From: a virus
IMG/VR virus record: IMGVR_UViG_3300025010_000082
Span: 1-51,411 of that record
Direction: 5' to 3' (one strand)
Length of the DNA: 51,411 nt
Shown here: positions 3,248 to 51,411 of the stretch, piece after piece
How the letters are laid out: each line of letters opens with the position of its first letter
Numbering within the stretch: position 1 is the first letter of the stretch
Notes under the pieces: generated by a model
Database searches by the model: none
The model's input: only the letters and a program-made list of their open reading frames with translations
Told to the model about the DNA's origin: nothing
Program-made: the position numbers and the translations under genes

Positions 3248-3921
3248 AAGATCCGATTTTGGTAGTTGGTTGCGCCCGTTCTGGAACGTCTATGACGGCA
3301 GGCATGCTCAATATCTGTGGGGCTTTTGGTGGGGAGATGTATGGCCCTAGTATTGATGCCCAGAAGGGGATGTTCGAGAACTGCAAACTCCGAAACGACA
3401 TCGTTAAACCATACCTGAAAAAGATTGGTGCTGATCCAATGGGCCAGAAGCCACTCCCGAACAATCGCCAGGTCTTTGAAGTTTCCCAACCGGAAGCAGA
3501 TCATTGGAGAGATATTGTTCAGCGACTTATGATGTCTCAAGGATACAAAAGTGGTGAATGGTTCTGCAAGTGTACCAAGGCTGCTGGGATGTGGTATATG
3601 TGGCATAAAGCCTTTCCAAAAGCGAAGTGGATAATTATCCATCGGGACCATAAAGACATCATCAGGAGTTGCCAATTAACTCGATTCATGCGGGCATATA
3701 GGGATGAGGCGGGTTGGCAGTCTTGGATAGATCAGCATGAGAAAAGATTTGCTGAAATGCATACTGCTAAGCTGGATATATTTGATTTCTGGCCATCTCG
3801 ACTTTGTGCTGGAGATTGGGATTATGCCAGGCAGTTGATAGAGAGTGTTGGTTTGGTATTCAACGAGCCTATGGTCAAAGCCTTTATCGAGCCGAAATGG
3901 TTCAATGAGGAGGGCAAGTAA
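3244..3921 (+). CDS. Sulfotransferase-like protein
   Basis: The 225 residues begin with a P-loop-like 5'-phosphosulfate-binding motif (VVGCARSGTSMTAGML). About 120 residues later there is a strand plus arginine and serine (IIIHRDHKDIIRSC) resembling the 3'-phosphate-binding element of PAPS-dependent sulfotransferases. Together these support a sulfo-group transferase using PAPS. The start is ATG 3244, overlapping the previous stop. Its neighbours are sugar- and acyl-transfer genes, so the acceptor is probably the same glycan or protein. Confidence 0.72.
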   Translation: MKDPILVVGCARSGTSMTAGMLNICGAFGGEMYGPSIDAQKGMFENCKLRNDIVKPYLKKIGADPMGQKPLPNNRQVFEVSQPEADHWRDIVQRLMMSQGYKSGEWFCKCTKAAGMWYMWHKAFPKAKWIIIHRDHKDIIRSCQLTRFMRAYRDEAGWQSWIDQHEKRFAEMHTAKLDIFDFWPSRLCAGDWDYARQLIESVGLVFNEPMVKAFIEPKWFNEEGK

Positions 3922-24539: not shown

Positions 24540-24737
24540 TCAATTTTGGATTGTTAAACCAAGAATATCAACATATATTTCGACTTCTCCATATCTTGGT
24601 TTATCGATTTGATCGTCATAAAAAACAGGAGTGCGGATATCGATATAATCAATTTCAATATCCTTTAGGCTAAGTCCTTTGAGGTGAGCATCAACCTGAT
24701 CTTTAAACTTATTCCAAGTCATTTTATATCTGCTCAT
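24540..24737 (-). CDS. Hypothetical small protein
   Basis: The 65-residue protein starts at ATG 24737, overlapping the Mre11-like stop, after GAGGGG. It is predicted alpha/beta (KDIEIDYIDIRTPVFY then EVEIYVDILGL). The function is unknown. Confidence 0.45.
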   Translation of the reverse strand: MSRYKMTWNKFKDQVDAHLKGLSLKDIEIDYIDIRTPVFYDDQIDKPRYGEVEIYVDILGLTIQN

Positions 24738-26152
24738 TTCAACCCCTCATAATAACTCCATACCTTATCCCGGACCCCTTGGGTTATCAGGCCCTCACTG
24801 ACCGCCGCCTCCAGGTTATCATGGAAGTTAATCCCGGATACCACCTGCTCACCAAGTTTCTCCACAAAAGCATCCAGGCGGTTTTCCTTGGCCTTCTTGA
24901 TATCGATATAATCCCGATTGATAACCCCTTCCTCAATCGGCACATAAACCCTTTTGATTGTATTGGTATCTGCAAACCACAAAAAGACGCTGGGTTTAAA
25001 ATCAATCTGGTCGGCATCATTCCGCATCAAAGACCCGGGATTGACAAGAACTCGCCCATTCTCTTCCCGGGTAAAGGTTTGGTGGTTGTGCCCGCAGACG
25101 ATCAGATCAAAGTCCGGCAGCAGATCCATTACTTCCTTGGCGGAATAACCGACACAGCCGGGGAATGGTTCGAACTCTTCGTAAACCATGGCGTGAACGA
25201 GTGCGATATTTTTTACTCCGTCATCAAATTTCCATTTAGTCGCCTCTATTTTATGCCCCCAACCATAACCGTTTACAATTATTTTTTCTTTTTCTAACAG
25301 AAGCGGTTCATCTTCATAAGCCCGGGTTATAGTTCCAGCAGATTCAAGTACGCTCATCGCGCTTCCTGAATAATTTTCTAAAGACTTGCCAGGAAGGTCG
25401 TGATTTCCGCAAATCGTAAACATCCTGTTCGGTAAACTTGACATGGCCCAAACTAACAAGGAATGACTTGGATTTGATTTATATTTTTTATCAAATAAAT
25501 CCCCGGCATCAAATACCGGGCAGTTATGAAATATTTGTAACTCCTTTAACCATTCTAATTTTTTTGAAAAAGCAAGATTATAGTCATCGGTTCGACAAAG
25601 TGGCGAGAAGGAACGTAGTTCAATATCAGCCGTTAAAATTGCAGTAACTTTTCTTCGTTGTCTACCATAATTACGTTTTCCGTGATCAGGATCGAATTTC
25701 CTATGAAATTTTATATGTTCTTCTTGATTTGCAAAAAGGATTAGATTTTCTGGACGATCATCGTCATGAATTTTATTTCTATGATGTATTACTTCTTCTT
25801 CGAGAAGTTCTCTTCCTATTTCTTTTTCCATGACTACACGACATCGGCGGCGATAGCGCTCTCCGGTTTTTATTTTTACATAAACATATCCGCCATCATC
25901 GTACCATTTTCCGCCATTCCATCTATAGTGATTTTCTCCTTCCCGGGCGTGGTTAAATGCGATTAACCGTTCTCGCATTTCTGAATTTCTCGAATTATGA
26001 CCAAGGATAAATTTATTCCAACATCCTTTTTTTCTTTTTTTAACAGAAGACAACTCGACTTCTTGCCCGCATCCACAAGAACATTTTGGTGGAAGCTCAA
26101 TATCGGCAGTCAGGATGGCGTCGGCTTTTTTGGGTTGGTTGCTTCGTCTCAT
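24734..26152 (-). CDS. Mre11/SbcD-like nuclease with HNH insertion
   Basis: The 472-residue ORF contains a metallophosphoesterase: DAGDLFDKK, CGNHDLPG, LVHAMV and CGHNHQTF match the G-D-x-x-D, G-N-H-D and G-H-x-H motifs of Mre11/SbcD nucleases. The first motif is TADIEL, with Glu where Asp-x-His is usual. About 150 residues (21-170) form an inserted HNH homing-endonuclease domain with a zinc finger (CSCGCG), the EVIHHRNKIHDDDRPENLILF core and E-H-I-K-F-H. The nonapeptide AILTADIEL occurs before and after the insert. The enzyme should work with the split Rad50-like pair in end resection. Confidence 0.8.
   Translation of the reverse strand: MRRSNQPKKADAILTADIELPPKCSCGCGQEVELSSVKKRKKGCWNKFILGHNSRNSEMRERLIAFNHAREGENHYRWNGGKWYDDGGYVYVKIKTGERYRRRCRVVMEKEIGRELLEEEVIHHRNKIHDDDRPENLILFANQEEHIKFHRKFDPDHGKRNYGRQRRKVTAILTADIELRSFSPLCRTDDYNLAFSKKLEWLKELQIFHNCPVFDAGDLFDKKYKSNPSHSLLVWAMSSLPNRMFTICGNHDLPGKSLENYSGSAMSVLESAGTITRAYEDEPLLLEKEKIIVNGYGWGHKIEATKWKFDDGVKNIALVHAMVYEEFEPFPGCVGYSAKEVMDLLPDFDLIVCGHNHQTFTREENGRVLVNPGSLMRNDADQIDFKPSVFLWFADTNTIKRVYVPIEEGVINRDYIDIKKAKENRLDAFVEKLGEQVVSGINFHDNLEAAVSEGLITQGVRDKVWSYYEGLK
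25616..25642 (-). repeat. Second, recoded copy of nine codons
   Basis: This codes for AILTADIEL, identical in protein to 26093-26119 but using different codons for seven of the nine residues. It rebuilds the first strand of the nuclease domain downstream of the inserted HNH domain. Confidence 0.8.
25643..26092 (-). mobile_element. In-frame HNH homing-endonuclease insertion
   Basis: The insert encodes 150 residues of a typical HNH_3-type homing endonuclease, in frame with the host gene and without a start codon of its own. There are no splice-type residues at the ends (no Cys/Ser at the start, no His-Asn at the end), so it is not an intein. The open frame and lack of intron structure argue against an intron. 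The fused protein should keep a complete first strand, because that strand is duplicated after the insert. Confidence 0.75.
26093..26119 (-). repeat. First copy of nine codons flanking the HNH insert
   Basis: This encodes AILTADIEL at the N-terminal side of the HNH insertion. The second copy at 25616-25642 encodes the same nine residues but differs at 8 of 27 bases, all synonymous. Peptide identity with nucleotide divergence suggests recoding of the endonuclease target. Confidence 0.8.
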
Positions 26153-34642: not shown

Positions 34643-37600
34643 TCAAAAAATAAATAGTGATTTAAACTTCTTCAGATCATCCCTTGTTGTTACATAATCA
34701 GGATCAAATGCATTTATTTGGGTCAGGATTGCAGTTACGTTTTTATTCACTCCCGGAATCTTCTCACTTGGAGTCGATGAGAAAAAACCTTTCCGCTGCT
34801 TCTCCCCGTGTTTGGCTGCAGCAATCTTTTCCGCTACTATTTCCCCGACGCCATTAATGGAGATGAAGGGCGCATACAAATTCCCCTTTTTATCGCAATT
34901 CCATTTGACCGCATCTGAAATACCAATCTTTGGTAAATTGATTTTCAAACCAAGCCGCCTGGCTTCCCTGATATATTCAATGTTTTTTGTCTTATCACCA
35001 AGGGTCAGACAGGAGGCAAGAAATTCATTGGGAAAGTATATTTTGCTATACATATCCCAATAAGTTATCATGGAATATTCTACAGAATGACTATTATGGG
35101 TTATCAAGCCATTTGATAACATGAAATTATGATATACCGGCATTTCAATGTCGTATGTTTCGAGGTATCCAACTTCTTCAATTGAAACCAGTGTCTTTGT
35201 AGTTTGAACTCTGCCTTTTGACCATCTCTTTTCTCTGCCGTTTGCATAATGTTCTTTTTTGTGGCATCCAGGGCAAAGCCAAGTTAACCAGTATGGGAAT
35301 TTATTTCCACCATCTAAATCTTTATGATGAACTTCCATTCTTTCGTGATATTTCCCACAGCATTCGCATGGACTTGCAGACATCAATTCTTTATATTCAT
35401 TTAATGCTTTTGTTTTCCCGTTTTTATAAGATGGGTTCCCTTCTCCTACATGAAAACCTTTTTGCGCTTTTGGATATTTCTTTCCTTTATTTGTTTCATT
35501 ACTTGGTTCAGGTTTATATTTCGGCAGTTCCAGCGCGCCAAATATCGAACCGATAATTGCTTTTTTAATTCTTTTCCATTCTCCATCGATAATAAATTTG
35601 TGGCTTCTGGTACACTCAACAAAAGAACCGTCATCGAAAGTATACTTATAGCAAAACTTAATTCCATTTTTGATAACTCTCAGTGATTTTTGCGGAACCC
35701 CTTTAACTCCATCAAAACTTATTAAATTTGGTTTGAGGCCTTTATTCCTTACTCCCTTTTTTGGATTTGACTCATACATATAATAAAGTTCCGCAATGGT
35801 CATGCTTGATTTTCTATTTTGATTTCCCCCAGTCAGTTGAATCAAAGTATTTCCAGCCAAGCACATATTAAACCCGTAACCACCAAACTTTGACATCATA
35901 TCCCAGATTTGAATGGCTTTCTTTTCTGTGATTGTTCCTTGATTTTTACAGCCCTGCAGAAACTCATCTTTATATTTATCAAAAGCGGCATGGCCCATAC
36001 TCTTGCCCATGACCTTCCTGATCTTGTTGCAGGTTGACATAGGGATGCCGGCCAATTGATTAACCGCCTTCATAACCTGCTCCTGATAAACTATTACACC
36101 GAATGTTTCCTCAGTCAGTTTATCAAAAATAGGATGGATCTTTTCGACCTTGGCTTTGCCTCGTTTCCTCTTGGAATATAGTTCGGTCATCCCGGATTGC
36201 ATAGGGCCAGGACGCCACAGGGCCGTTACCGCATAGAGCATTTGGAAGTTTTCGACCCCAAGTTCCTTGCAATAATTGGTCAGCCCGCTTGAACCAATTT
36301 GAAAAGCCCCGACCGTATTACCCTCGGATATTTCAGCAAAGACTTTCGGATCATCAAAGGCAATTTTTTTGTAGTTGATATCTATCCCATGGTTCTGCTT
36401 TACCATCCGCCGGCATTCATTCAGGATGGTCAGGGCGGAGAGGCCAAGGATATCTAGTTTCATCAACCCGCAATACTCTGCATTCCGCATATCCCAATTG
36501 GCCACAATGGTACCGGCCCGGGTAACAAGATTGCAGTTGTGGCCTTCCCGGAGATCCTTTTCGGAAATACAGACCCCAGCCGCGTGCTGGCCATGCCCCC
36601 TGATCTGTCCTTCGATAGATTGGGCCACCTCAATCACTTCCGGATATTTCTGACCGAATCTCCGGCACTCCGGAACCTCATTGAAAGACTTCTCGATCTC
36701 CTGGCCTACTTCAGCCTCTACCATCGCTTTGGCAGCAAAGTCGACCTCTGATAAGGGGATATCGAAAACGCGGCTTACATCACGAAGTACGCCCTTTCCT
36801 TTCATGGTCAGGAAATTGGAAAGGCCAACTACATTATACTCACCATATTTATCAGAAAGATATTTACGAACATCATCTCTCCGGATATCCTCAAAATCCA
36901 TATCGATATCCGGTAAATCTTTCCGCTCTTCCGAGACAAACCGAAAAAACTCTGTACCATAGATGAGAGGGTCGCAATCAGTGATATATAAAAGGTAAGC
37001 AACAAGACACCCGCCTGCCGAACCACGACCAGGCCCGGTCATTACATTATTCTTTTGGCACCATTGGATAAGATCCCAGACAATGAGAAAGTAGCGAACG
37101 AACTTCTTGGAGATGATCAGTTTCATTTCCATTTCGATTCGTTCTTTGTATGGTTTCAATTCCTCAAAAGTTCGCCCCCTGATTCTCCTTTTCAATCCTT
37201 TATAAACCATGTTCTCAAGAAACAATAATTCAGATTCATCATTAAACGATTTCTTGATACTTGGCAGATATACTTCTTGTTGCTCAATCCGGAAGTTTTC
37301 ACAAATCCTGGCGACCTTGCCGGTCATCCTGATTGCCTTCCGGATCTCATGGTCAGTTAAAACCCCTTGATCCTGGAAAGCCGCAACCATTTCTTCCTCT
37401 GAACGGAGAAAGAGGCCGGTGCAATTGAATTTCCATCTATTCGGATCATTCCAGGTTCTTTTCGATTGGATTGCCAGGAGTATTTCTTGATGCTTGGTTG
37501 CTTCGTTGGTCGGGTAATGAGCATCATTGGTGGCGACGATTTGAATCCCGAGTTCCTTGGATATCTTCAGGGCCAGTTTATTTACCTTTATCTGCTCGGG

Positions 37601-38107
37601 GATATCGTGTGGCATGACCTCCAGGAAAACCCGATCCTTTCCAAGCGCCTCAAAATAATTCTTGATCATCCGTTTATCTGTATCAAGAAGCAGATAAGAC
37701 ATGGAACAGGCCGAAAGGATTACCAGGCCATCAATATGTTTCAGGAGGGTTTTATGATCGATCCTAGGCCGGTGATAATACCCTTCGATATTGGCAATGG
37801 TCAGGAGCTGCAGAAGATTTCGCCAGCCAGTTTGATTCTCGACAAGTAGAGTAATATGATATCGAGTTTCACCTTTTTGTTTGATAGTCATATCCGGAAC
37901 GAGATACATCTCTGCTCCGATAATTGGCTTTATGCCGGCTTCAAGACATTGTTTTTGATGTTCTATTGCTCCGTCAATATTGCTGTGATTGCTGAGGGCC
38001 AAGGCGGTTTGTCCGAGTTCTTTGGCCAGGGCCGCATATTGCTTAGAAGTCCCGACTCCATCAAGGACGGAGTATTCATTATGGAGATGGAGGTGGCAAA
38101 AACTCAT
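34643..38107 (-). CDS. dnaE: DNA polymerase III alpha subunit with intein
   Basis: The 1154-residue precursor has an N-terminal PHP domain (CHLHLHNEYSVLDG at residue 4), the polymerase core with GPGRGSAGG and the catalytic DLPDIDMDF, the finger and palm motifs WRPGPMQSGM and FGVIVYQEQVM, and a short C-terminus. Residues 749-1005 are an intein inserted between GYGFNM and SHSVEYS, the conserved G-Y-G-F-N-K-S-H-A loop. The mature enzyme would be about 897 residues, shorter than bacterial DnaE because the C-terminal accessory domains are missing. It pairs with the clamp, clamp loader and DnaB-like helicase of this window. Confidence 0.93.
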   Translation of the reverse strand: MSFCHLHLHNEYSVLDGVGTSKQYAALAKELGQTALALSNHSNIDGAIEHQKQCLEAGIKPIIGAEMYLVPDMTIKQKGETRYHITLLVENQTGWRNLLQLLTIANIEGYYHRPRIDHKTLLKHIDGLVILSACSMSYLLLDTDKRMIKNYFEALGKDRVFLEVMPHDIPEQIKVNKLALKISKELGIQIVATNDAHYPTNEATKHQEILLAIQSKRTWNDPNRWKFNCTGLFLRSEEEMVAAFQDQGVLTDHEIRKAIRMTGKVARICENFRIEQQEVYLPSIKKSFNDESELLFLENMVYKGLKRRIRGRTFEELKPYKERIEMEMKLIISKKFVRYFLIVWDLIQWCQKNNVMTGPGRGSAGGCLVAYLLYITDCDPLIYGTEFFRFVSEERKDLPDIDMDFEDIRRDDVRKYLSDKYGEYNVVGLSNFLTMKGKGVLRDVSRVFDIPLSEVDFAAKAMVEAEVGQEIEKSFNEVPECRRFGQKYPEVIEVAQSIEGQIRGHGQHAAGVCISEKDLREGHNCNLVTRAGTIVANWDMRNAEYCGLMKLDILGLSALTILNECRRMVKQNHGIDINYKKIAFDDPKVFAEISEGNTVGAFQIGSSGLTNYCKELGVENFQMLYAVTALWRPGPMQSGMTELYSKRKRGKAKVEKIHPIFDKLTEETFGVIVYQEQVMKAVNQLAGIPMSTCNKIRKVMGKSMGHAAFDKYKDEFLQGCKNQGTITEKKAIQIWDMMSKFGGYGFNMCLAGNTLIQLTGGNQNRKSSMTIAELYYMYESNPKKGVRNKGLKPNLISFDGVKGVPQKSLRVIKNGIKFCYKYTFDDGSFVECTRSHKFIIDGEWKRIKKAIIGSIFGALELPKYKPEPSNETNKGKKYPKAQKGFHVGEGNPSYKNGKTKALNEYKELMSASPCECCGKYHERMEVHHKDLDGGNKFPYWLTWLCPGCHKKEHYANGREKRWSKGRVQTTKTLVSIEEVGYLETYDIEMPVYHNFMLSNGLITHNSHSVEYSMITYWDMYSKIYFPNEFLASCLTLGDKTKNIEYIREARRLGLKINLPKIGISDAVKWNCDKKGNLYAPFISINGVGEIVAEKIAAAKHGEKQRKGFFSSTPSEKIPGVNKNVTAILTQINAFDPDYVTTRDDLKKFKSLFIF
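35093..35863 (-). mobile_element. Intein with HNH endonuclease domain
   Basis: The 257-residue intein starts with Cys (CLAGNTLI, block A), contains CTRSHKF (block B), and ends YHNFMLSNGLITHN followed by Ser (+1). The centre holds an HNH-type domain (CECCGKYHERMEVHHKD, then WLCPGCHKKEH). All catalytic splice residues are present, so it should splice. HNH in place of LAGLIDADG is less common but known in phage inteins. Confidence 0.9.
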
Positions 38108-38362: not shown

Positions 38363-39364
38363 CTACCCAACCAGCGCAACTACATGCCTGAAATCATCCC
38401 CCTCAAACAACAAAGCCCCATTCCCGACTATGCACTTCCGTAAATTCTTGAGGATATCAATCAGGAAAGAAGGATCGACATCAAACTCGATTTTCTCCCC
38501 TTTGTATTTACAATTGGCCGTTTCTTCCAGCCATCCATAATCCCCTTTCCCCTTGATGATCATGGTTCGATCTTCGACCGCTACCGTCACAAAATCACCA
38601 CTTGCTGAATCCGCTGTGAATACCCCGGCTCGATCCAGCATCTCCAAAACCCCAGCCGGGAAATGAAGTTCCTTCCCCTTCACTTCAAGGAATTGTTCAA
38701 CCTCCGGAAATTTGCCGGCCAGGGTCCTGGCCGAGAAAATCAACCCGTCATTGGCATGGAAATGAATCCAGCCGGGGGAATGAGAAAGGCGCTTGACATC
38801 ATACTTAACCAGGAATTTGACAACCGATGCCGGCAGCAGGATTGGTTCGGATTTGACCTCGGCATCAAAATTAACCTGAATGATCCGGAAATCATCGGAA
38901 GCAGTCACGACCTCGCCATCAATATAGACGCAGGTTAAAAGAGGTTTGCTCAGATCCTTGGCGGCGCAGTAGCTGGCAATAGAAATGGCCTTCAGGAAGT
39001 TATCCGGCAGCTTGGTAAATTTGGTATGCTCGATATCGACTTCATCCAGCGGGAGCATTATTTCGGCTTCCAGTTTGATGCCGGCCTTACTCCGCTTTCC
39101 CTTGATGATCAATTCGTTTTCGACGATACCAATTTCAATTTCCTCATCCTTGATTTTAGAAAGGAGGGAATACAATTCATTGGCTCGGACAGCTCCGTTG
39201 ATCTTGGATTTAAATGGTTTCCAAACCGATATTTCATCATTGAAAGTCGTGATTGAATCGCCAGCAAAAACAAAACTGGTTGATTGCGCAATAATGTCTT
39301 TAGTGGCGAGGCCTGGCTTTACTTCTTCCAGGGCGGCTATCAATTCCGTTCTTTTTAACTGCAT
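38363..39364 (-). CDS. DnaN-like beta sliding clamp
   Basis: The 333 residues have the three-domain clamp layout with FVFAGDSITTFNDEISVWKP at residue 30, KLPDNFLKAISIASYCAA, VVTASDDFRIIQV, and a second and third repeat of the same fold. AGGAGAAGAGC precedes the start. It follows module E of the repeat array and overlaps its last 65 bases. It provides processivity to the DnaE-type polymerase. Confidence 0.85.
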   Translation of the reverse strand: MQLKRTELIAALEEVKPGLATKDIIAQSTSFVFAGDSITTFNDEISVWKPFKSKINGAVRANELYSLLSKIKDEEIEIGIVENELIIKGKRSKAGIKLEAEIMLPLDEVDIEHTKFTKLPDNFLKAISIASYCAAKDLSKPLLTCVYIDGEVVTASDDFRIIQVNFDAEVKSEPILLPASVVKFLVKYDVKRLSHSPGWIHFHANDGLIFSARTLAGKFPEVEQFLEVKGKELHFPAGVLEMLDRAGVFTADSASGDFVTVAVEDRTMIIKGKGDYGWLEETANCKYKGEKIEFDVDPSFLIDILKNLRKCIVGNGALLFEGDDFRHVVALVG

Positions 39365-39518
39365 GCTCTTCTCCTATTAAGGCATTGAATACGATAGTAG
39401 AACCGAAGTTATTCCCGAGTATATGATGGTATGATAAAAGGCGCTTATTGATTTTTAAAGCAGGAAGATCCGCCCCCCCCTCATGGCCTGGTGCGGTGCT
39501 TGCTAAGTATATTTTCAT
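39300..39518 (-). CDS. Orphan N-terminal module E (with G8 tract)
   Basis: The 72-residue ORF opens MKIYLASTAPGHEGGADLP, with a run of eight G/C bases (39473-39480) encoding the glycines, and then INKRLLSYHHIL. This is the same start-tract-RLLSY plan as the other five modules. The current tract keeps the frame open. The last third overlaps the clamp gene and looks non-homologous. It starts inside module F. Confidence 0.55.
   Translation of the reverse strand: MKIYLASTAPGHEGGADLPALKINKRLLSYHHILGNNFGSTIVFNALIGEEHAVKKNGIDSRPGRSKARPRH
39473..39480 (-). repeat. Homopolymer of 8 G/C in module E
   Basis: Eight C on the plus strand (G on the coding strand) lie a few codons after the start of module E. 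Such tracts slip during replication. One base more or less would remove the RLLSY part from the product. Confidence 0.85.
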
Positions 39519-39672
39519 CTTTTCGATTGGTCCCGGTTTTACAATATTGATCAAAATCCGCTTCTTTTTCCTTAGTATGGAAATAACTCAAGAGGCGATG
39601 CCGGCCATTTGCTTTGGTCAGGGATTCCCCTTGTGATATTTCCAGGAGCCAGGTTGCGAGATACAATTTCAC
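39481..39672 (-). CDS. Orphan N-terminal module F
   Basis: The 63-residue ORF starts at GTG 39672, overlapping the stop of the TGT-like gene (GTGA) with AGGAG upstream. It begins VKLYLATWLLEISQGESL and later has RHRLLSYFHTKEKEADF. It lacks a homopolymer. The product stops before any catalytic TGT motif. Confidence 0.6.
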   Translation of the reverse strand: MKLYLATWLLEISQGESLTKANGRHRLLSYFHTKEKEADFDQYCKTGTNRKDENILSKHRTRP

Positions 39673-40559
39673 AGGGAAAAACTCCTCGATACCTTTGGTT
39701 GAAACGGCCACGGCCAGGCCCGCCAGTTCTTTTCCAGATCCAGGAAATAGATAATATTTAGTTCATCCCGTTGCTTGTAATCATTGGAAAGACCCCCCTC
39801 AATTATCTTTTCAACCTCCCGCTTCCCGCCGGCTTCCTTACCATTCCATTTCTCATCGTCTTTCAATTCATACTTGGCATCAACCACCCGGAATTTGGAT
39901 ACCCCGACCTTGAACCCTTTGGCGGTAAAATACTTTTCAATATTCTGTCGGGCAATTGGGGAAAAGGATTCCAAATGCTTGCCTGCTTCGTTCTTGCTGG
40001 GGCTGCGATTACTGACCTGGACCTTCCAGCAGTCCTCGGAATAATCATATTTTCCATCCTTGAATTTCGGGACATAGACCCCACCCATCCGACCGGTCAT
40101 TACCCAACTCGTACTATCAACGGACCACCACGGGTATCTCCGCATCAAGGAGTTACTGGTCAAGCCAAAGCCATGCACCTTGATGATTGGCATCCCGTCT
40201 TTATCGGTCAGGTAATTTTTCCAGATATCATCCAGCCAAATTCTCAGGTCAGGGGTCGAGATGGGAACCATGCCGCCAAGAGCAATATAATCATAGCCTC
40301 TGGATAAGTACATCTGCAGCCACTTGGGATCTTCCCCATAATGGAAACAGGGCAGGGGATTGACCCCGGCCTTCTCCATACGCCGCTGGTTTCGCCAGGT
40401 ACCTTCTGGGGAACCAATAACATCAAGATTGGCATAGACCTCAAGATGATCCTTGTGGGCTTTGATGAAATCGATATACTCGTTAATATCGATTTCTACG
40501 CCCTGGGTAAATGCCGAGAAAGCGCCGGAGTCAAGGAAGATGTCGACTTTAGTTTCCAT
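39669..40559 (-). CDS. TGT/DpdA-like transglycosylase domain
   Basis: The 296 residues visible from ATG 40559 contain DIFLDSGAFSAFTQG, which aligns with the D-S-G-G-F catalytic strand of tRNA-guanine transglycosylases, then YDYIALGGMVP (like Y-x-I-G-G-L), KVHGFGLTS and WSVDSTSW, where the Asp matches the nucleophile. These fit phage TGT-like DpdA proteins that swap guanine in DNA for a 7-deazaguanine. The frame is open upstream through a GA tract to ATG 40699 (module D), so the intended start is probably there. FolE, QueC, QueD and QueE nearby supply the base. The end overlaps module F (GTGA). Confidence 0.68.
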   Translation of the reverse strand: METKVDIFLDSGAFSAFTQGVEIDINEYIDFIKAHKDHLEVYANLDVIGSPEGTWRNQRRMEKAGVNPLPCFHYGEDPKWLQMYLSRGYDYIALGGMVPISTPDLRIWLDDIWKNYLTDKDGMPIIKVHGFGLTSNSLMRRYPWWSVDSTSWVMTGRMGGVYVPKFKDGKYDYSEDCWKVQVSNRSPSKNEAGKHLESFSPIARQNIEKYFTAKGFKVGVSKFRVVDAKYELKDDEKWNGKEAGGKREVEKIIEGGLSNDYKQRDELNIIYFLDLEKNWRAWPWPFQPKVSRSFSL

Positions 40560-40699
40560 AGATAGTTCGAAGGCAAATGGTATATTAAATTGGTTTTGAT
40601 AAATATCCCAGAAAGAGAGCAGGCGCTTGTTAATCAGACTTTGCCATTTCCTCTCTCTCTCTCTCTCATTCCTGGGGTGCCGGCAAAGTTGATTTTCAT
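40560..40699 (-). other. Module D: out-of-frame N-terminal extension of the TGT-like gene
   Basis: From ATG 40699 the frame reads MKINFAGTPGMRERERG and stops at 40634-40636. In the frame of the TGT-like domain the same DNA gives ...ERERKWQSLINKRLLSFWDI and then runs into the catalytic part. The two are separated by one frame step inside a GA repeat, so a loss of one GA unit would give one protein of about 342 residues. The current state is off, unless translation starts at ATG 40559. Confidence 0.7.
40651..40667 (-). repeat. GA dinucleotide tract (8.5 units) in module D
   Basis: Seventeen bases of alternating C and T (plus) or G and A (coding) lie 10 codons after ATG 40699. Removing one unit or adding two restores the frame to the TGT-like domain. 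This length is in the range where slippage is common. Confidence 0.85.
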
Positions 40700-40702
40700 G
40701 AT

Positions 40703-40867
40703 TTACAATTTCTTTTTCTTCTGCTTTATTATACTATTATTCGTGATTTTTAGATGATAAAAAGAATGCAATCTGGTTTTAAATAGGCGCTTATCAATCA
40801 GTTCAATCTCCCTTTTGCAATACCCGGGACTGCCCCCCCCCGGAACCCCTGCTAAATAAATCTTCAT
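40703..40867 (-). CDS. Orphan N-terminal module C (with G9 tract)
   Basis: The 54-residue ORF reads MKIYLAGVPGGGSPGYC and later IDKRLFKTRLHSFYHL. The glycines are encoded by a run of nine G (40833-40841 plus C). It is open in frame and ends 4 nt before module D. A TATAAT (plus 40728-40733), similar to the other leftward promoters, lies in its 3' end, upstream of module D. Confidence 0.62.
   Translation of the reverse strand: MKIYLAGVPGGGSPGYCKREIELIDKRLFKTRLHSFYHLKITNNSIIKQKKKKL
40833..40841 (-). repeat. Homopolymer of 9 G/C in module C
   Basis: Nine G on the coding strand code for the Gly-Gly-Gly part just after the start. The present length keeps module C open. Confidence 0.85.
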
Positions 40868-41038
40868 TTCTTTTGGATGAAACCTTGGATGAAATATTTA
40901 AACATCTCCATTACCGATTTATCACAGATAAGATAATGATAAGCCATGAGTCTGCGGGGGGGGGCAAGTTCCATTCTTTCGAAATAGCTTTTCTTCTTTT
41001 ACTCGGTCAGGGGTATTGCCGGCAAGATAGATCCTCAT
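40864..41038 (-). CDS. Orphan N-terminal module B, out of frame at a C9 tract
   Basis: From ATG 41038 the read is MRIYLAGNTPDRVKEEKLF and then ends at 40922. One base less in the tract (40956-40964) would continue into RRLMAYHYLICDKS and end in an ATGA overlap with module C at 40864. The shared motif after the tract and the coupled stop show which frame was intended. The module is probably off at present. Confidence 0.6.
40956..40964 (-). repeat. Homopolymer of 9 G/C in module B
   Basis: Nine G on the plus strand (C on the coding strand) separate the start of module B from its RRLMAYHYL part, which is in the -1 register relative to the start. An 8-nt tract would join them. Confidence 0.85.
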
Positions 41039-41196
41039 GACTTTTTATTCAGGTTAATTACGTTCATTATTTTATTGCCTCTGGAGAGATCATGGAATGA
41101 TATCAGACGCCGATAAACTTAAAGTTTATCGGCGAAATACCGCTCTCTGCCTTTGGTATTCATAACCGAGTATCCAGAGGCCAAATAGATTTTCAT
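41035..41196 (-). pseudogene. Orphan N-terminal module A with internal stop
   Basis: From ATG 41196 (ATGA overlap with the glycosylase gene) the read is MKIYLASGYSVMNTKGRERYFADKL and then TAA at 41119-41121. In the same frame after the stop comes VYRRLISFHDLSRGNK, the conserved second part, ending in an ATGA overlap with module B. The stop lies in the centre of a perfect palindrome (41108-41134). The module may be a broken copy or a read-through or recoding signal. Confidence 0.6.
41108..41134. repeat. Perfect 27-bp palindrome inside module A
   Basis: 13-bp arms (41108-41120 and 41122-41134) flank a single central base. The sequence interrupts module A between its start and its RRLISF motif, where the other modules have their low-complexity tracts. 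It could be a protein-binding site, a target of site-specific recombination, or an insertion. Confidence 0.85.
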
Positions 41197-41516
41197 TCAA
41201 TACCCTCGATTCTCTCCCGGCAAGCAGGGCACCTACGATGCAATTCTTTCTTATTCCCCAAAGCATCTATCTCGCATGCTGGCTTCTTTCTGAAACTGAG
41301 AAGGGGAGAATTATGATTCATTCCTCGAAATACCATCTCGGCGGATAATTCTTCGTGCCTCTGTTTTATTTTTGCTGGATCGACTAAACCCTTATCAATA
41401 TAGCCCTGAATGGAAATTCCTTTCCGGATAGTCCCGACGAACATATGCATTTCGACGTGCTCCCCGAGAAGATGTTGTTGACAAAGAAGGCTAGGTTCCA
41501 CTCCCCACATTCTCAT
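41193..41516 (-). CDS. DenV-like pyrimidine-dimer glycosylase family protein
   Basis: The 107 residues begin MRMWGVEPSLLCQQHLLGEHVEMHMFVGTI, and the Q-H-L-L-G-E-H and M-F-V-G segments match the endonuclease V (Pyr_excise) family, which removes UV photoproducts or acts as an AP lyase. The usual catalytic Thr2 of T4 DenV is not present, so the catalytic details or substrate may differ. The C-terminus has a cysteine pair (RRCPACRERI). The last bases overlap module A's start. Confidence 0.6.
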   Translation of the reverse strand: MRMWGVEPSLLCQQHLLGEHVEMHMFVGTIRKGISIQGYIDKGLVDPAKIKQRHEELSAEMVFRGMNHNSPLLSFRKKPACEIDALGNKKELHRRCPACRERIEGIE

Positions 41517-41556: not shown

Positions 41557-42423
41557 TTATGTCCGGATCAAACTCAATAACTCGGATCTTGCTTCAGGCT
41601 TAGTTAAAAATACGCCTTTCATTGAAGAGGTGACCATAGTAGAATGCTGCTTTCCGACTCCCCTCATTCTGATACAGAAATGATCCGCTTCAATTATGCA
41701 AGCGGCACCTTGGGCATTCAATTCATTCATGAGAATTGATGTTACCTGATCACCTATTCTCTCTTGAATTTGTAATCTTTTGGAAAAGATATCAATCAGT
41801 CTTGCGAGCTTTGAAATACCAATAACCTTGCCTCCAGGGATATAGGCGACATGCGCTCGGCCTACAAATGGTAATGCGTGATGTTCGCACATGGAATATA
41901 ATTCAATATCCCGTAAAAGGACTATTTGATCATATCCATCTGATTCAAAAGTTTTTATAACATCAGAGGGATTTTGTTCATATCCGCTGAAAATTTCTTT
42001 CCAGGCTTTAATCATTCGTTTTGGAGTTTCTTTTAATCCATCCCGATTTAAATCCTCCCCGATAAATTCTAAAAAGCGCGATGGGATATCTTCCGCAGAG
42101 GTGTCATGGCCCTGCTCAGTAACTTCCCATGGAAAGACCAACCATTCCATTGGATCAGTCTTTTCAAAAAGAGCAATGAATGGGGTAGTGGGATAAAGCT
42201 TTGTATATCGATCTCTTGTTGATCCTGAATCAATGAGATCATCAATAATATAGTCGGCTTCGGCAGGCCTATTCACAACTCCACCTTTACAAATGCCAGC
42301 TAGAAGATATGCAGGGGCGATGCCTCCCCTTGGAACCCCATAAAAATTTCCGCCATCTCTGATATTCCCACAAATATCATAACATTTCTTCTCTACTTCT
42401 TCATTTGTAATAATTCTTTTCAC
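41557..42423 (-). CDS. folE: Phosphoribosyltransferase-GTP cyclohydrolase I fusion
   Basis: The 288 residues combine an N-terminal PRTase-like part (GVPRGGIAPAYLLAG near 29-43; YIIDDLIDSGSTRDRY at 58-73) and FolE from about 110 on. FolE motifs are EDLNRDGLKETPKRM, MCEHHALPFVGRAHVAYIP and QERIGDQV, with the zinc ligands C179, H182 and C250. GTP cyclohydrolase I makes dihydroneopterin triphosphate, the first step to 7-deazaguanines. The PRTase part may salvage a base or nucleotide. The gene lies in the same operon direction as queC, queE and queD. Confidence 0.88.
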   Translation of the reverse strand: MKRIITNEEVEKKCYDICGNIRDGGNFYGVPRGGIAPAYLLAGICKGGVVNRPAEADYIIDDLIDSGSTRDRYTKLYPTTPFIALFEKTDPMEWLVFPWEVTEQGHDTSAEDIPSRFLEFIGEDLNRDGLKETPKRMIKAWKEIFSGYEQNPSDVIKTFESDGYDQIVLLRDIELYSMCEHHALPFVGRAHVAYIPGGKVIGISKLARLIDIFSKRLQIQERIGDQVTSILMNELNAQGAACIIEADHFCIRMRGVGKQHSTMVTSSMKGVFLTKPEARSELLSLIRT

Positions 42424-42628
42424 GGAGCCTCCTATTAAATATCCTTCTCCAGATATAGGAGCGGATAAAAGAGATTACTGTATAAAATACGGTGATGCCA
42501 AAGGCTTTTGATACCGAGGTTGAATAGCCAAAAAGATGCAGGATGGGCGGGGTAACCATCCACGAAATAAAAAAGCCGGTCCCGATATTTAACCCAGCTT
42601 CCAGTAGTGACCCCCTTCTACTCTGCAT
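42401..42628 (-). CDS. Two-TM phage protein (DUF7220-like)
   Basis: The 75 residues begin at ATG 42628 (MQSRRGSLLEAGLNIGTGFFISW), overlapping QueC by 11 nt. Two transmembrane segments (about 14-34 and 40-60) and a basic RSYIWRRIF end match the small DUF7220-type phage membrane protein. Its function is not known. The ribosome-binding site is weak. Confidence 0.65.
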   Translation of the reverse strand: MQSRRGSLLEAGLNIGTGFFISWMVTPPILHLFGYSTSVSKAFGITVFYTVISFIRSYIWRRIFNRRLREKNYYK

Positions 42629-43277
42629 ATTGAATCGGATCGACCAGACCATTCTCGGCAAATGCTTCCAATCTTTCAGTACACGACCCACATTTTCCAC
42701 ATGAATAAAACTGATCCTTGTAACAGGTACGGGTCAATTCAAAAGGAACTTTGTGCTCCATCCCGATCTTGACGATATCTCCTTTACTCATCCCCAGGAA
42801 AGGGGCATACAAGGAAACCGAATACTCAGAAGCGGTTTTGATGGCCAGATCCATACTTTCCTTGAAGGCAGGCCGGCAATCCGGATAGATGGCATGATCC
42901 CCGGCATGGATACCGAGTGCTACTGCGTCGTATTCGAATGATTGGGCCAACCCCGCAAGGATAGCCGAGAAGATCATATTCCGGCCAGGTACGACCGTTT
43001 GTACCATGGTCCGGTCTTCATAATGGCCTTCCGGGATTGATCGGGAATCTTCTTTCAGTAGGGCCGACTTGAACCCGGCAAAGATTCCGGAGATATCCAT
43101 TGACTGCCGCTTGATACCGTAATGATCGGCAAGTTTCCGGGCCGCTTCCAGTTCATACTGATTATGCTTTGAGCCATAGAAGAACGAGATGGCAAAAACT
43201 TCATTGCCAGTCCCGAGGAGGGTCCCGAGTAAGGCAGCGGAATCCATCCCGCCGGATAATGATAAGACGATTTTCAT
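42618..43277 (-). CDS. queC: 7-cyano-7-deazaguanine synthase
   Basis: The 219 residues open MKIVLSLSGGMDSAALL, the PP-loop ATP-binding motif, followed by VPGRNMIFSAI and the zinc-binding CYKDQFYSCGKCGSCTERL. QueC converts carboxy-deazaguanine to preQ0 using ATP and ammonia. The length is normal. It is the last enzyme of the preQ0 branch present here; no QueF-like reductase is seen. Confidence 0.95.
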   Translation of the reverse strand: MKIVLSLSGGMDSAALLGTLLGTGNEVFAISFFYGSKHNQYELEAARKLADHYGIKRQSMDISGIFAGFKSALLKEDSRSIPEGHYEDRTMVQTVVPGRNMIFSAILAGLAQSFEYDAVALGIHAGDHAIYPDCRPAFKESMDLAIKTASEYSVSLYAPFLGMSKGDIVKIGMEHKVPFELTRTCYKDQFYSCGKCGSCTERLEAFAENGLVDPIQYAE

Positions 43278-44338: not shown

Positions 44339-45010
44339 TTACCTCTCAATTTTTGAGTCAGGCCAAATTGTTTTATGAATCTGGGTATTTAGAATGCAGT
44401 GGGTCAATCCATCTTCGACCATCCATTCCCATAATTGAGCCGCGGTTAAGGGAAGAACCGGGGAAAGAGCTATGCCGGCCGCGGTTTTATCAAGTTCGTT
44501 TATAATTCTCTTTGCCACCAGAAAGTCCCATTCATCCTCAATCGGGAATTTGAAAATCACGAGATCCGTTGATTCAATTTTTTTAAGGTGCGTTTCAGGA
44601 AGGATCAATGAACCAGAAACCCCGCTCCCCGGCATCTTGATATCAACCACCCAACAATCCGGATGCTCAGGCAGGATATCCAGGGGAAGCGTTCCATTTG
44701 TTTCAACGCTGGTCATATATCCTTGGATATCAAGTTCTCTGATCAATGCCTGCAGGCCATTCTTTTGCAAGAGGGGTTCTCCACCGGTAATCAAAACCCG
44801 CTCGCAATTGAAAGGTTTGATCTGCTCGATTATTTCTTCAACGGTCATCTGGGTGCCGGTAGCATTGATTGACTGCTTGGTATCACAATAATGGCAATTT
44901 AAATTACAACCAGCAAAACGGATGAAAATAGTCGGGGTGCCTTGCGGCCAGATATTGACCTCCCCGGAAATCGAAAAGAAAATCGACATGATATTAATCT
45001 TTGTTTTCAT
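44339..45010 (-). CDS. queE: 7-carboxy-7-deazaguanine synthase
   Basis: The 223 residues have FFSISGEVNIWPQGTPTIFIRFAGCNLNCHYCDT with the radical-SAM C-x3-C-x2-C at C35, C39 and C42, and then LITGGEPLLQ. QueE is the third enzyme of the preQ0 pathway and turns CPH4 into CDG. ATG 45010 overlaps the QueD stop; M8 is an alternative start. Confidence 0.93.
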   Translation of the reverse strand: MKTKINIMSIFFSISGEVNIWPQGTPTIFIRFAGCNLNCHYCDTKQSINATGTQMTVEEIIEQIKPFNCERVLITGGEPLLQKNGLQALIRELDIQGYMTSVETNGTLPLDILPEHPDCWVVDIKMPGSGVSGSLILPETHLKKIESTDLVIFKFPIEDEWDFLVAKRIINELDKTAAGIALSPVLPLTAAQLWEWMVEDGLTHCILNTQIHKTIWPDSKIER

Positions 45011-45378
45011 GCTTTTCTCCAGGTGGCAAAGGAATCATCTGTTTCAGAAACCTGCACCCGGATCAAACCCATTCCGATTGGGGTTTCCATTATCCGGCCG
45101 GCAATCCAATTGGCGATGGTCTCGGCGGTGGGATTAAAAGGTTCGAGGATATCATTCAAATAATGATGATCGAGTTGGTCAATAATCGGCTCGACAATCC
45201 TTTTGATATCCTTGAAGTCAATTACCATGCCCGGGTATGGTCTTGGTAATTGACCATACTCATTGGTGAATTCGACCTCCACATTACTGTTGTGGCCATG
45301 AACGCGGGAGCAGTCTCCATCATACTCCGGTAAATGATGGGCATAACAAAAACTAAACTTTTTGGTTACTGTGATCAT
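45007..45378 (-). CDS. queD: 6-carboxy-tetrahydropterin synthase
   Basis: The 123 residues show FSFCYAHHLPEYDGDCSRVHGHN (zinc ligands H15, H27, H29 and catalytic C23), VIDFKDIKRIVEP, LDHHYLND and PTAETIANWIAGRI. QueD belongs to the 6-pyruvoyl-tetrahydropterin-synthase family and makes CPH4 from dihydroneopterin triphosphate. It overlaps the queE start. Confidence 0.93.
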   Translation of the reverse strand: MITVTKKFSFCYAHHLPEYDGDCSRVHGHNSNVEVEFTNEYGQLPRPYPGMVIDFKDIKRIVEPIIDQLDHHYLNDILEPFNPTAETIANWIAGRIMETPIGMGLIRVQVSETDDSFATWRKA

Positions 45379-50091: not shown

Positions 50092-50808
50092 TTACGACAA
50101 CTCAAATATATTGCACCAATCCATGATCCGCCTGGTCAAACGCTCATCTCCATACCGCTTGGCAATCTGATCAATACTGAAATTGCTAGTAAAAATGGTC
50201 TGCTTATCCTCTTCATACCGATGGGTCAAAATCAGATACATTACCGTGAAAGCCCACTCAGTTGGCTTCTCCACTCCAAAATCATCTAAGATCAGAAAAT
50301 CCACATTCTTGTATCTATCCATGATCGCCTGCTCTTCCCCGGCGGAGAGCTTAAATGATTTCTGAAGATTCTGGATCAGCTGCGGGGATGTTTCGAAAAG
50401 AAAAGTGGCGCGGGGATTCAAATGCTCCTTGACCGTATTGTATTGCTCCATATGATAGAGCATGGATGAAACGGCGAAGGTCGTTTTTCCGATACCGGCC
50501 TTACCAGGCAAGAATAGGCTTTGTTTAAAGGTTTCGGGGATGGGGATAGATGAGGCCACCTTTTTGTTTTCGGTCGAGTCTTGGGTCATTCTCAGCACTC
50601 TACGGGCGGTCTTCGATGGGACACCGGCTTCGGTAAGATGGGCTAAGATACTTTTGGATTGAAATTTATTGGTATAATAACAAAGCCGGCATTGATCGTT
50701 GCAGCCGAAACTTACTTTTTCCCCGCATTGGCATTTTTGGTTTTTGACTTCTTCTTGGAGTTTATTTTCAAGGGTTGGCAAAAAAGCACAATACATTTTA
50801 GATTTCAT
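50092..50808 (-). CDS. DnaC/IstB-like helicase loader
   Basis: The 238 residues have an N-terminal cysteine cluster (CQCGEKVSFGCNDQCRLCYY) and then an AAA+ domain with GKAGIGKTTF (Walker A), VDFLILDDFG (Walker B), TIFTSNFSIDQ (sensor 1) and DERLTRRI. This layout matches phage DnaC-type loaders that deliver the DnaB-like helicase (45389-46921). It overlaps the gene at the right edge by 11 nt. Confidence 0.85.
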   Translation of the reverse strand: MKSKMYCAFLPTLENKLQEEVKNQKCQCGEKVSFGCNDQCRLCYYTNKFQSKSILAHLTEAGVPSKTARRVLRMTQDSTENKKVASSIPIPETFKQSLFLPGKAGIGKTTFAVSSMLYHMEQYNTVKEHLNPRATFLFETSPQLIQNLQKSFKLSAGEEQAIMDRYKNVDFLILDDFGVEKPTEWAFTVMYLILTHRYEEDKQTIFTSNFSIDQIAKRYGDERLTRRIMDWCNIFELS

Positions 50809-51411
50809 ATTTCTCCCAATTGGTTTTGTCGACTTTTATTTTTTTGTCTCTTCCTGGCCTGAGTGAATAATCAATATTGCCGGAGACCCCTGAGCCATTG
50901 GCAACACCTGGTTGTTTCTTTTCGTAGTCCTGTATTTTTTCATTCAGGTATTTTTCGAAGTTTTTGGGGCGGAATAAAGTTTCTGGATTGAAATAGTTTG
51001 GGTGCTCTTGAAAATATGGATCATGGACTTTTGTTTCTAGGACATAAAAACAATCCTGTACGGAAAACCCATCCTTCAGGCGGGATATTATATATTTCAA
51101 ATTTTCAGGAACTGGCCGAAACCCTCTTGGTTTGGAGCCAAGTTGGTTAAGTCTGGAAAGAACTTTTGTTGCTTTTCTTTGGAGGGTTTTATTTAAATTA
51201 GTTTTGGAAGTTTCTTTTTCAGAATCATTCGGCAACTGTTCCGCAGGAACATTGCCTATATCTTTTCTATAATCTATATTATCTATTTTATATATTATAT
51301 CCTCGGTGTTTCTACCGGGGGGGGTATCGGTACTTTCACCGGGGCCTATAGGTATTTCTACCGGGAGGGGGGCAATCATTTTTAACAATCTTTTTTCGAC
51401 TTCTTTTGAAT
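50798..51411 (-). CDS. Replication initiator-like protein, N-terminus missing
   Basis: The frame is open to the window edge, so the N-terminus is cut off; at least 204 residues are present. Residues after the middle match the conserved phage C-terminal module (SRLNQLGSKPRGFRPVPENLKYIISRLKDGF ... NPETLFRPKNFEKYLNE), typical of initiator proteins next to a DnaC-like loader. A C8 tract (51317-51324 on the plus strand, G) lies in a low-complexity linker. It likely recruits the helicase loader to the origin. Confidence 0.7.
   Translation of the reverse strand, partial: SKEVEKRLLKMIAPLPVEIPIGPGESTDTPPGRNTEDIIYKIDNIDYRKDIGNVPAEQLPNDSEKETSKTNLNKTLQRKATKVLSRLNQLGSKPRGFRPVPENLKYIISRLKDGFSVQDCFYVLETKVHDPYFQEHPNYFNPETLFRPKNFEKYLNEKIQDYEKKQPGVANGSGVSGNIDYSLRPGRDKKIKVDKTNWEKYEI
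51317..51324 (-). repeat. Homopolymer of 8 G/C in the initiator-like gene
   Basis: Eight C on the coding strand encode the TPPGR part of the linker. It is the fourth G/C homopolymer of eight or more in this window. A slip would truncate the protein before its C-terminal module. Confidence 0.85.

Follow-up and report, generated by a model that had tools for sequence, protein, structure and literature searches.

The virus record IMGVR_UViG_3300025010_000082 of IMG/VR, analysed here over its positions 1 to 51,411 (this whole stretch of 51,411 nucleotides is the window in what follows), carries at 39300-41196 on the minus strand a tandem array of six MKIYLAG...RLLSY-like modules around a dpdA-like gene. 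We consider it rather likely that repeats drive phase variation of these DpdA N-terminal modules and that the array acts as a contingency locus which varies 7-deazaguanine modification of DNA. The switching itself is well supported, and the phage population probably switches modules on and off at random. A first-pass annotation, made from the sequence alone, had proposed six modules with a shared motif order that form a slippage- or recombination-controlled cassette either for DNA modification or for a family of short proteins. Each of the six was confirmed and lies on the minus strand. The locus combines a switch acting on dpdA with a set of short proteins.

On the minus strand the genes run in the order F, E, C, D-dpdA, B and A, followed by the polymerase clamp, and the modules start at 41196 (F), 41038 (E), 40867 (C), 40699 (D), 39672 (B, with GTG) and 39518 (A). 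The array comprises the following features:

41035 to 41196, minus strand: module F (MKIYLASGYSVMN...RRLISF), interrupted by TAA at the palindrome centre and coupled to E by ATGA; the allele is intact in L004 and L014
41110 to 41132, no strand: perfect 23-nt palindrome CCGATAAACTT-T-AAGTTTATCGG with TAA central and in frame; the centre base is flipped (AAA) in the relative L004
40864 to 41038, minus strand: module E (MRIYLAGNTPDR...RRLMAYHYL), frameshifted in the window by C9 (coding strand); C8 in L003 is in frame
40956 to 40964, minus strand: homopolymer tract of module E, G9 on the plus strand; C8 in L003, C7 in L005
40703 to 40867, minus strand: module C (MKIYLAGVPGGGSPG...RLHSFYHL), in frame in the window with G9; out of frame in L003 and L005 with G8
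40833 to 40841, minus strand: homopolymer tract of module C, C9 on the plus strand
40560 to 40699, minus strand: module D (MKINFAGTPGMRERER...KRLLSFWDI), the N-terminus of dpdA, whose frame is lost at the GA repeat
40652 to 40667, minus strand: (GA)8 repeat of module D, TC on the plus strand; shorter in L004, one unit longer in L005
39669 to 40559, minus strand: dpdA catalytic body (LDSGAFSAF...), 296 residues, with its own ATG immediately before the DSGAFS motif
39481 to 39672, minus strand: module B (VKLYLATWLLEISQG...RLLSYFHT...YCKTGTN), intact and without a tract, overlapping the dpdA stop
39300 to 39518, minus strand: module A (MKIYLASTAPGHEGG...KRLLSYHHI); G8 keeps it in frame, and G7 turns it off in the relative L029
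39473 to 39480, minus strand: homopolymer tract of module A, C8 on the plus strand

In the window allele both motifs can be read in a single open frame in modules A (G8), B and C (G9); the frame shifts at the tract in E (C9) and D ((GA)8), and F is stopped by TAA. Only D continues into the body, as the first-pass annotation had stated. Its repeats were likewise found, namely C8 at 39473-39480, (TC)8 at 40652-40667 (given there as 40651-40667), C9 at 40833-40841 and G9 at 40956-40964, together with the 23-nt palindrome in F with its central TAA; B has no tract. When G or C runs of at least 7 and dinucleotide repeats of at least 5 units were listed for the 51 kb window, four of the six tracts lay within the 1.9 kb array, a concentration well beyond chance.

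Tract lengths differ between close relatives, between otherwise identical contigs and between contigs of one sample, which supports the proposed control by slippage. Three contigs with ~90% identity to the window (L003, L004 and L005) have arrays of this kind that differ in repeat lengths and module content. Across these four sequences the tract of E is C9, C8 or C7, that of C is G9 or G8, and the GA repeat of D takes various lengths; E is open in L003 only and C in the window only, and module D, the N-terminus of dpdA, is out of frame in all four and in frame in other phages. Two contigs from different metagenomes, L029 and L014, are identical at 3733 of 3734 positions, and the sole difference is G7 (off, in L029) versus G8 (on, in L014) in module A; the L029 contig end falls within the C tract of the neighbouring module. 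Contigs L015 and L018, both from metagenome 3300028888, overlap end to end with 129 of 130 positions identical and differ only by G8 versus G9. The break between them looks like an assembly split by a mixed population. Their array, distant from that of the window, is followed downstream by a gene with PHROG 887-matching relatives in L022 and L023. Module gain, loss and replacement were also seen among relatives, in line with the recombination that had been suggested.

Similar tandem arrays, for which a search had been recommended, occur on dozens of other viral contigs. Scans with patterns independent of reading frame and of tract yielded 114 distinct modules on 53 contigs (L059-L063, L067 and L068, which were among the genome-contig matches, were dropped as they held no module in the scan). 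Modules without a repeat between the motifs were intact in 60 cases and broken in one, and those with a repeat were intact in 29 and broken in 24 (Fisher P=4.9e-9, related contigs not being fully independent). Repeat density inside modules was 84 times that of the rest of the same contigs in an earlier set of 96 modules. Upon synonymous recoding of 74 intact modules, 3.0 +/- 1.6 tract-bearing modules were expected (maximum 9 in 1000) and 24 were seen; hence the repeats are not merely a by-product of the amino acid sequence. The RE-rich stretches show a strong preference for AGA and GAG codons.

The compared contigs are metagenome assemblies and runs of G8-G9 are error-prone, so that homopolymer sequencing or assembly errors have to be weighed as the source of these differences. 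We regard this explanation as very unlikely, as the less error-prone GA repeats vary as well, unrelated phages have tracts at this same place between the motifs, in excess of the synonymous expectation, and in the L029/L014 pair the sole difference in 3734 positions falls in a tract.

Selection speaks against decay. Between close relatives the nonsynonymous difference (pN) was much below the synonymous difference (pS) in modules B and A and on both sides of the tract in E. In D after the tract, pN was 0-0.013 and pS 0.23-0.41 despite the broken frame in all four alleles. Decay would not yield such values. The modules might be decaying duplicates of the dpdA N-terminus, given that the duplicates are short and several are broken, and simple decay was the alternative that the first-pass annotation had set against its own reading. 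It is contradicted by pN far below pS on either side of the tracts, by breaks that are nearly restricted to tract-bearing modules and by the conservation of subfamilies in distant phages, and we give it almost no weight at all.

The selection on out-of-frame D means either that the tract often returns to frame or that slippage during expression bridges it. The second possibility leads to a reading in which ribosomal or transcriptional slippage bridges the breaks, the tract is a recoding site and all modules are made to some level. Homopolymer runs may be slippery for polymerases and ribosomes, and purifying selection acts on segments whose frame is broken in every sampled allele. We nevertheless consider it quite improbable: tract length differs at the DNA level between otherwise identical contigs and within the contigs of one sample, the modules differ in the type and position of their tracts, about half of the tract-bearing modules are in frame, and long GA repeats are not known as typical recoding sites.

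The assignment of the central gene as TGT/DpdA-like was upheld. The body matched PHROG 887 (queuine tRNA-ribosyltransferase, E=4.3e-58) and the PADLOC DpdA model (E=9e-6), and its D-S-G-A motif was invariant in 39 aligned sequences. A structure model of the DpdA relative in L081, in which the body is confident from near the DSGAFS strand, matched phage queuine tRNA-ribosyltransferases with probability 1.00. Its matches among PDB structures were TIM barrels and weak (best E=2e-3), TGT was absent among the 50 PDB structure matches listed, and a PDB sequence search with the DpdA profile gave no match. In-frame insertions make dpdA ~310 codons longer in L008 (63-1913) and L039 (263-2107); a weak LAGLIDADG match in L039 suggests an intein.

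Comparison of the modules with TGT-like proteins, recommended at the outset, revealed homology to the DpdA N-terminus: standalone D and B modules aligned with fused DpdA N-termini with hhalign probabilities of 99.5% and 96.9%, respectively. No PHROG family was matched by the six module peptides, and tblastn of the B and D consensus modules against 50,697 cultured phage records gave no match. Subfamilies recur across distant phages and are marked by APG (A), TW (B), PGG (C), TPG (D), NT (E), GYSV (F) and NG (X); subfamily B has the invariant residues A6, T7, W8, L18, R26, L27, S29 and Y43 over 23 phages. Subfamilies C, D and E are standalone in some phages and fused to the DpdA body in others, which suggests that the modules may act together with DpdA. 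By analogy to the motif order of TGT enzymes, the module probably supplies the first two strands and helices of the DpdA TIM barrel.

With the DpdA body alone as query, 68 distinct loci were found, and standalone modules lay near 60 of them; the reverse strand, used as control, gave one match over all 68. At 21 loci the body is split, without an in-frame N-terminus (at most 31 open codons upstream), and several split bodies have their own site resembling a ribosome-binding site. A standalone module is present at 20 of these 21 loci, and the remaining one (L202) is cut by the contig end with an F-like module just upstream. Standalone modules were no commoner with split than with fused DpdA (20/21 split and 30/35 fused loci; P=0.71 for non-fused versus fused), and completion of a split enzyme was therefore rejected as their sole role. 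They must do more than that, since fused loci have standalone modules too. Conversely, dpdA is held by 11 of the 15 searched array records, and the four without it are fragments of at most 23 kb.

These counts also bear on the possibility that the standalone modules are independent small effectors derived from the DpdA N-terminus, perhaps directed at host defences as inhibitors or decoys, which are phase-varied because hosts respond and which share no more than operon position with dpdA. Contingency loci are usually antagonist-facing genes, subfamily B consists of conserved ~50-residue proteins with invariant residues of their own, and modules stand beside a fused, presumably complete DpdA at 30 of 35 loci. 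We rate this as unlikely in view of the tight linkage to dpdA (60/68 DpdA loci, 11/15 array records) and of the same subfamilies being in part fused to the DpdA body elsewhere.

The modules of the phase-variable array appear to be coupled. As had been claimed, stop and start codons overlap in the frame that keeps the second motif: in window modules F and E the stop of this frame overlaps the next ATG by 4 nt, and in the ATG frame the next ATG lies 54-80 nt from the stop. Across all contigs, -4 in the second-motif frame is the commonest spacing from a module stop to the next start, and a recognisable ribosome-binding site is missing at ~60% of module starts. Because of these overlaps and missing sites, an off module may also lower translation of the module that follows. 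A second type of switch could operate in module F, where the window stop allele and the intact L004 allele of the palindrome (41110-41132) are exact reverse complements and template switching that flips the centre base would toggle between TAA and AAA. This flip rests on one allele pair with 12 further differences in 162 nt, and the stop difference may be a point mutation.

In the mechanism that we propose, the modules would be translationally coupled paralogues of the N-terminal ~50-60 residues of DpdA, and most of them would be toggled by replication slippage in the tract of G, C or GA that separates the conserved motifs, with changes in length arising during phage replication. Slippage in module D would set whether the DpdA body receives an N-terminus; slippage elsewhere would select which ~50-residue standalone modules are made and probably also set the translation level of the coupled downstream modules. 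Gain, loss and exchange of modules between phages also take place. The standalone modules may provide the DpdA body with a choice of N-terminal parts. The predicted benefit would be varied 7-deazaguanine DNA modification against host restriction. More tentatively, and with appreciably less confidence, we envisage a combinatorial split enzyme whose body could pair with any of several exchangeable, often separately switched N-terminal modules, giving many modification specificities per population and outrunning host restriction; if true, this would be the phage counterpart of specificity-switching restriction systems.

Several observations weigh against the phase-variable reading. No ON allele of dpdA was seen among the four close relatives, each of which has D out of frame, and tract-length differences are known from assembled contigs. 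Tracts are almost never present in the conserved subfamily B; most B copies are therefore not switches. Standalone modules accompany fused DpdA at 30 of the 35 such loci. The N-terminus of the L081 DpdA model (residues 1-56) has low confidence, and so does a structure model of module B on its own, which was not used.

The array lies between FolE and the clamp and DNA polymerase III genes, and its neighbours FolE, QueD, QueE and QueC, all present, place dpdA in a 7-deazaguanine operon:

41557 to 42423, minus strand: FolE (GTP cyclohydrolase I)
42618 to 43277, minus strand: QueC
44339 to 45010, minus strand: QueE-like radical SAM protein
45007 to 45378, minus strand: QueD (6-pyruvoyl tetrahydropterin synthase family)
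38363 to 39364, minus strand: DNA polymerase processivity factor (clamp), overlapping the end of module A

A short open reading frame resembling pyrimidine-dimer glycosylase (41193-41516) separates FolE from the array in the window, unlike in the relatives L003-L005, where FolE-like sequence abuts the array directly. Elsewhere in the window, DNA polymerase III alpha (34643-38107) has a weak intein-splicing match at residues 768-1005, under the Pfam cut-off, and an HNH endonuclease is fused to a calcineurin-like phosphoesterase domain at 24734-26152. Near the window end a perhaps slippage-prone G8 run (51317-51324) lies in a repetitive stretch; its host gene (50798-51388) has a replication-initiation-like match.

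A second, compact class of arrays with tandem MKIFLAG-type starts was found in L009, L011, L013, L015, L017, L018, L022 and L023. It carries G8-9 or (AG)7-10 repeats upstream of another PHROG 887 gene (FLLDSGAFTFM), and near relatives show unequal tract lengths. Modules or arrays also lie on contigs binned as Thermoplasmata, Pacearchaeota, Spirochaetes, Sulfuricurvum and PVC (L064, L065, L066, L069 and L073); these may be mis-binned viruses or a hint at the host.

Repeat-driven switching is well known in bacteria. For phages, we found one described case among open-licence PMC papers, and it concerns a receptor-binding protein. As summarised in a review, polyG contingency genes of Campylobacter phages switch this protein (Sorensen et al. 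2021, Cell Rep 35:109214, via PMC11868660). Both systems have phage-borne simple repeats, and here too these probably switch genes by slippage and diversify the population. The present system differs in that the repeats, which include GA besides G/C, belong to N-terminal modules of an enzyme, arranged in tandem within an operon for DNA modification. In bacteria, phase-variable restriction-modification enzymes (e.g. PMC4889913) are alike in that repeats switch a DNA-modifying enzyme, as they probably do here. There, however, one gene switches, whereas here several N-terminal paralogues are involved on the phage side of the conflict, with no methyltransferase. Phage 7-deazaguanine modification with DpdA, in which dpdA is essential for DNA modification of phage CAjan (PMC6884629), shares the operon genes and the PHROG 887 DpdA body. 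The cultured Aminobacter phage Erebus and Pseudomonas phage PSASB_03 have a similar neighbourhood and a single fused DpdA whose N-terminus is of the same kind as the modules (e.g. MKLYLAGIYTSNF...YYLESYHYIHK) but, unlike the window array, no modules or tracts around it. Reports on the module motifs, or on phage phase variation joined to DNA modification, were not found among open-licence PMC papers.

The modules form a family of ~50-residue proteins lacking PHROG matches, two consensus queries of which had no match in cultured phages, and gene callers will overlook or wrongly split such genes. The array described here belongs to a phage operon for DNA modification, and in uncultured viruses such modules accompany most of the related dpdA genes. 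Switching of this kind offers a testable route to varied protection of phages from restriction, which they may use.

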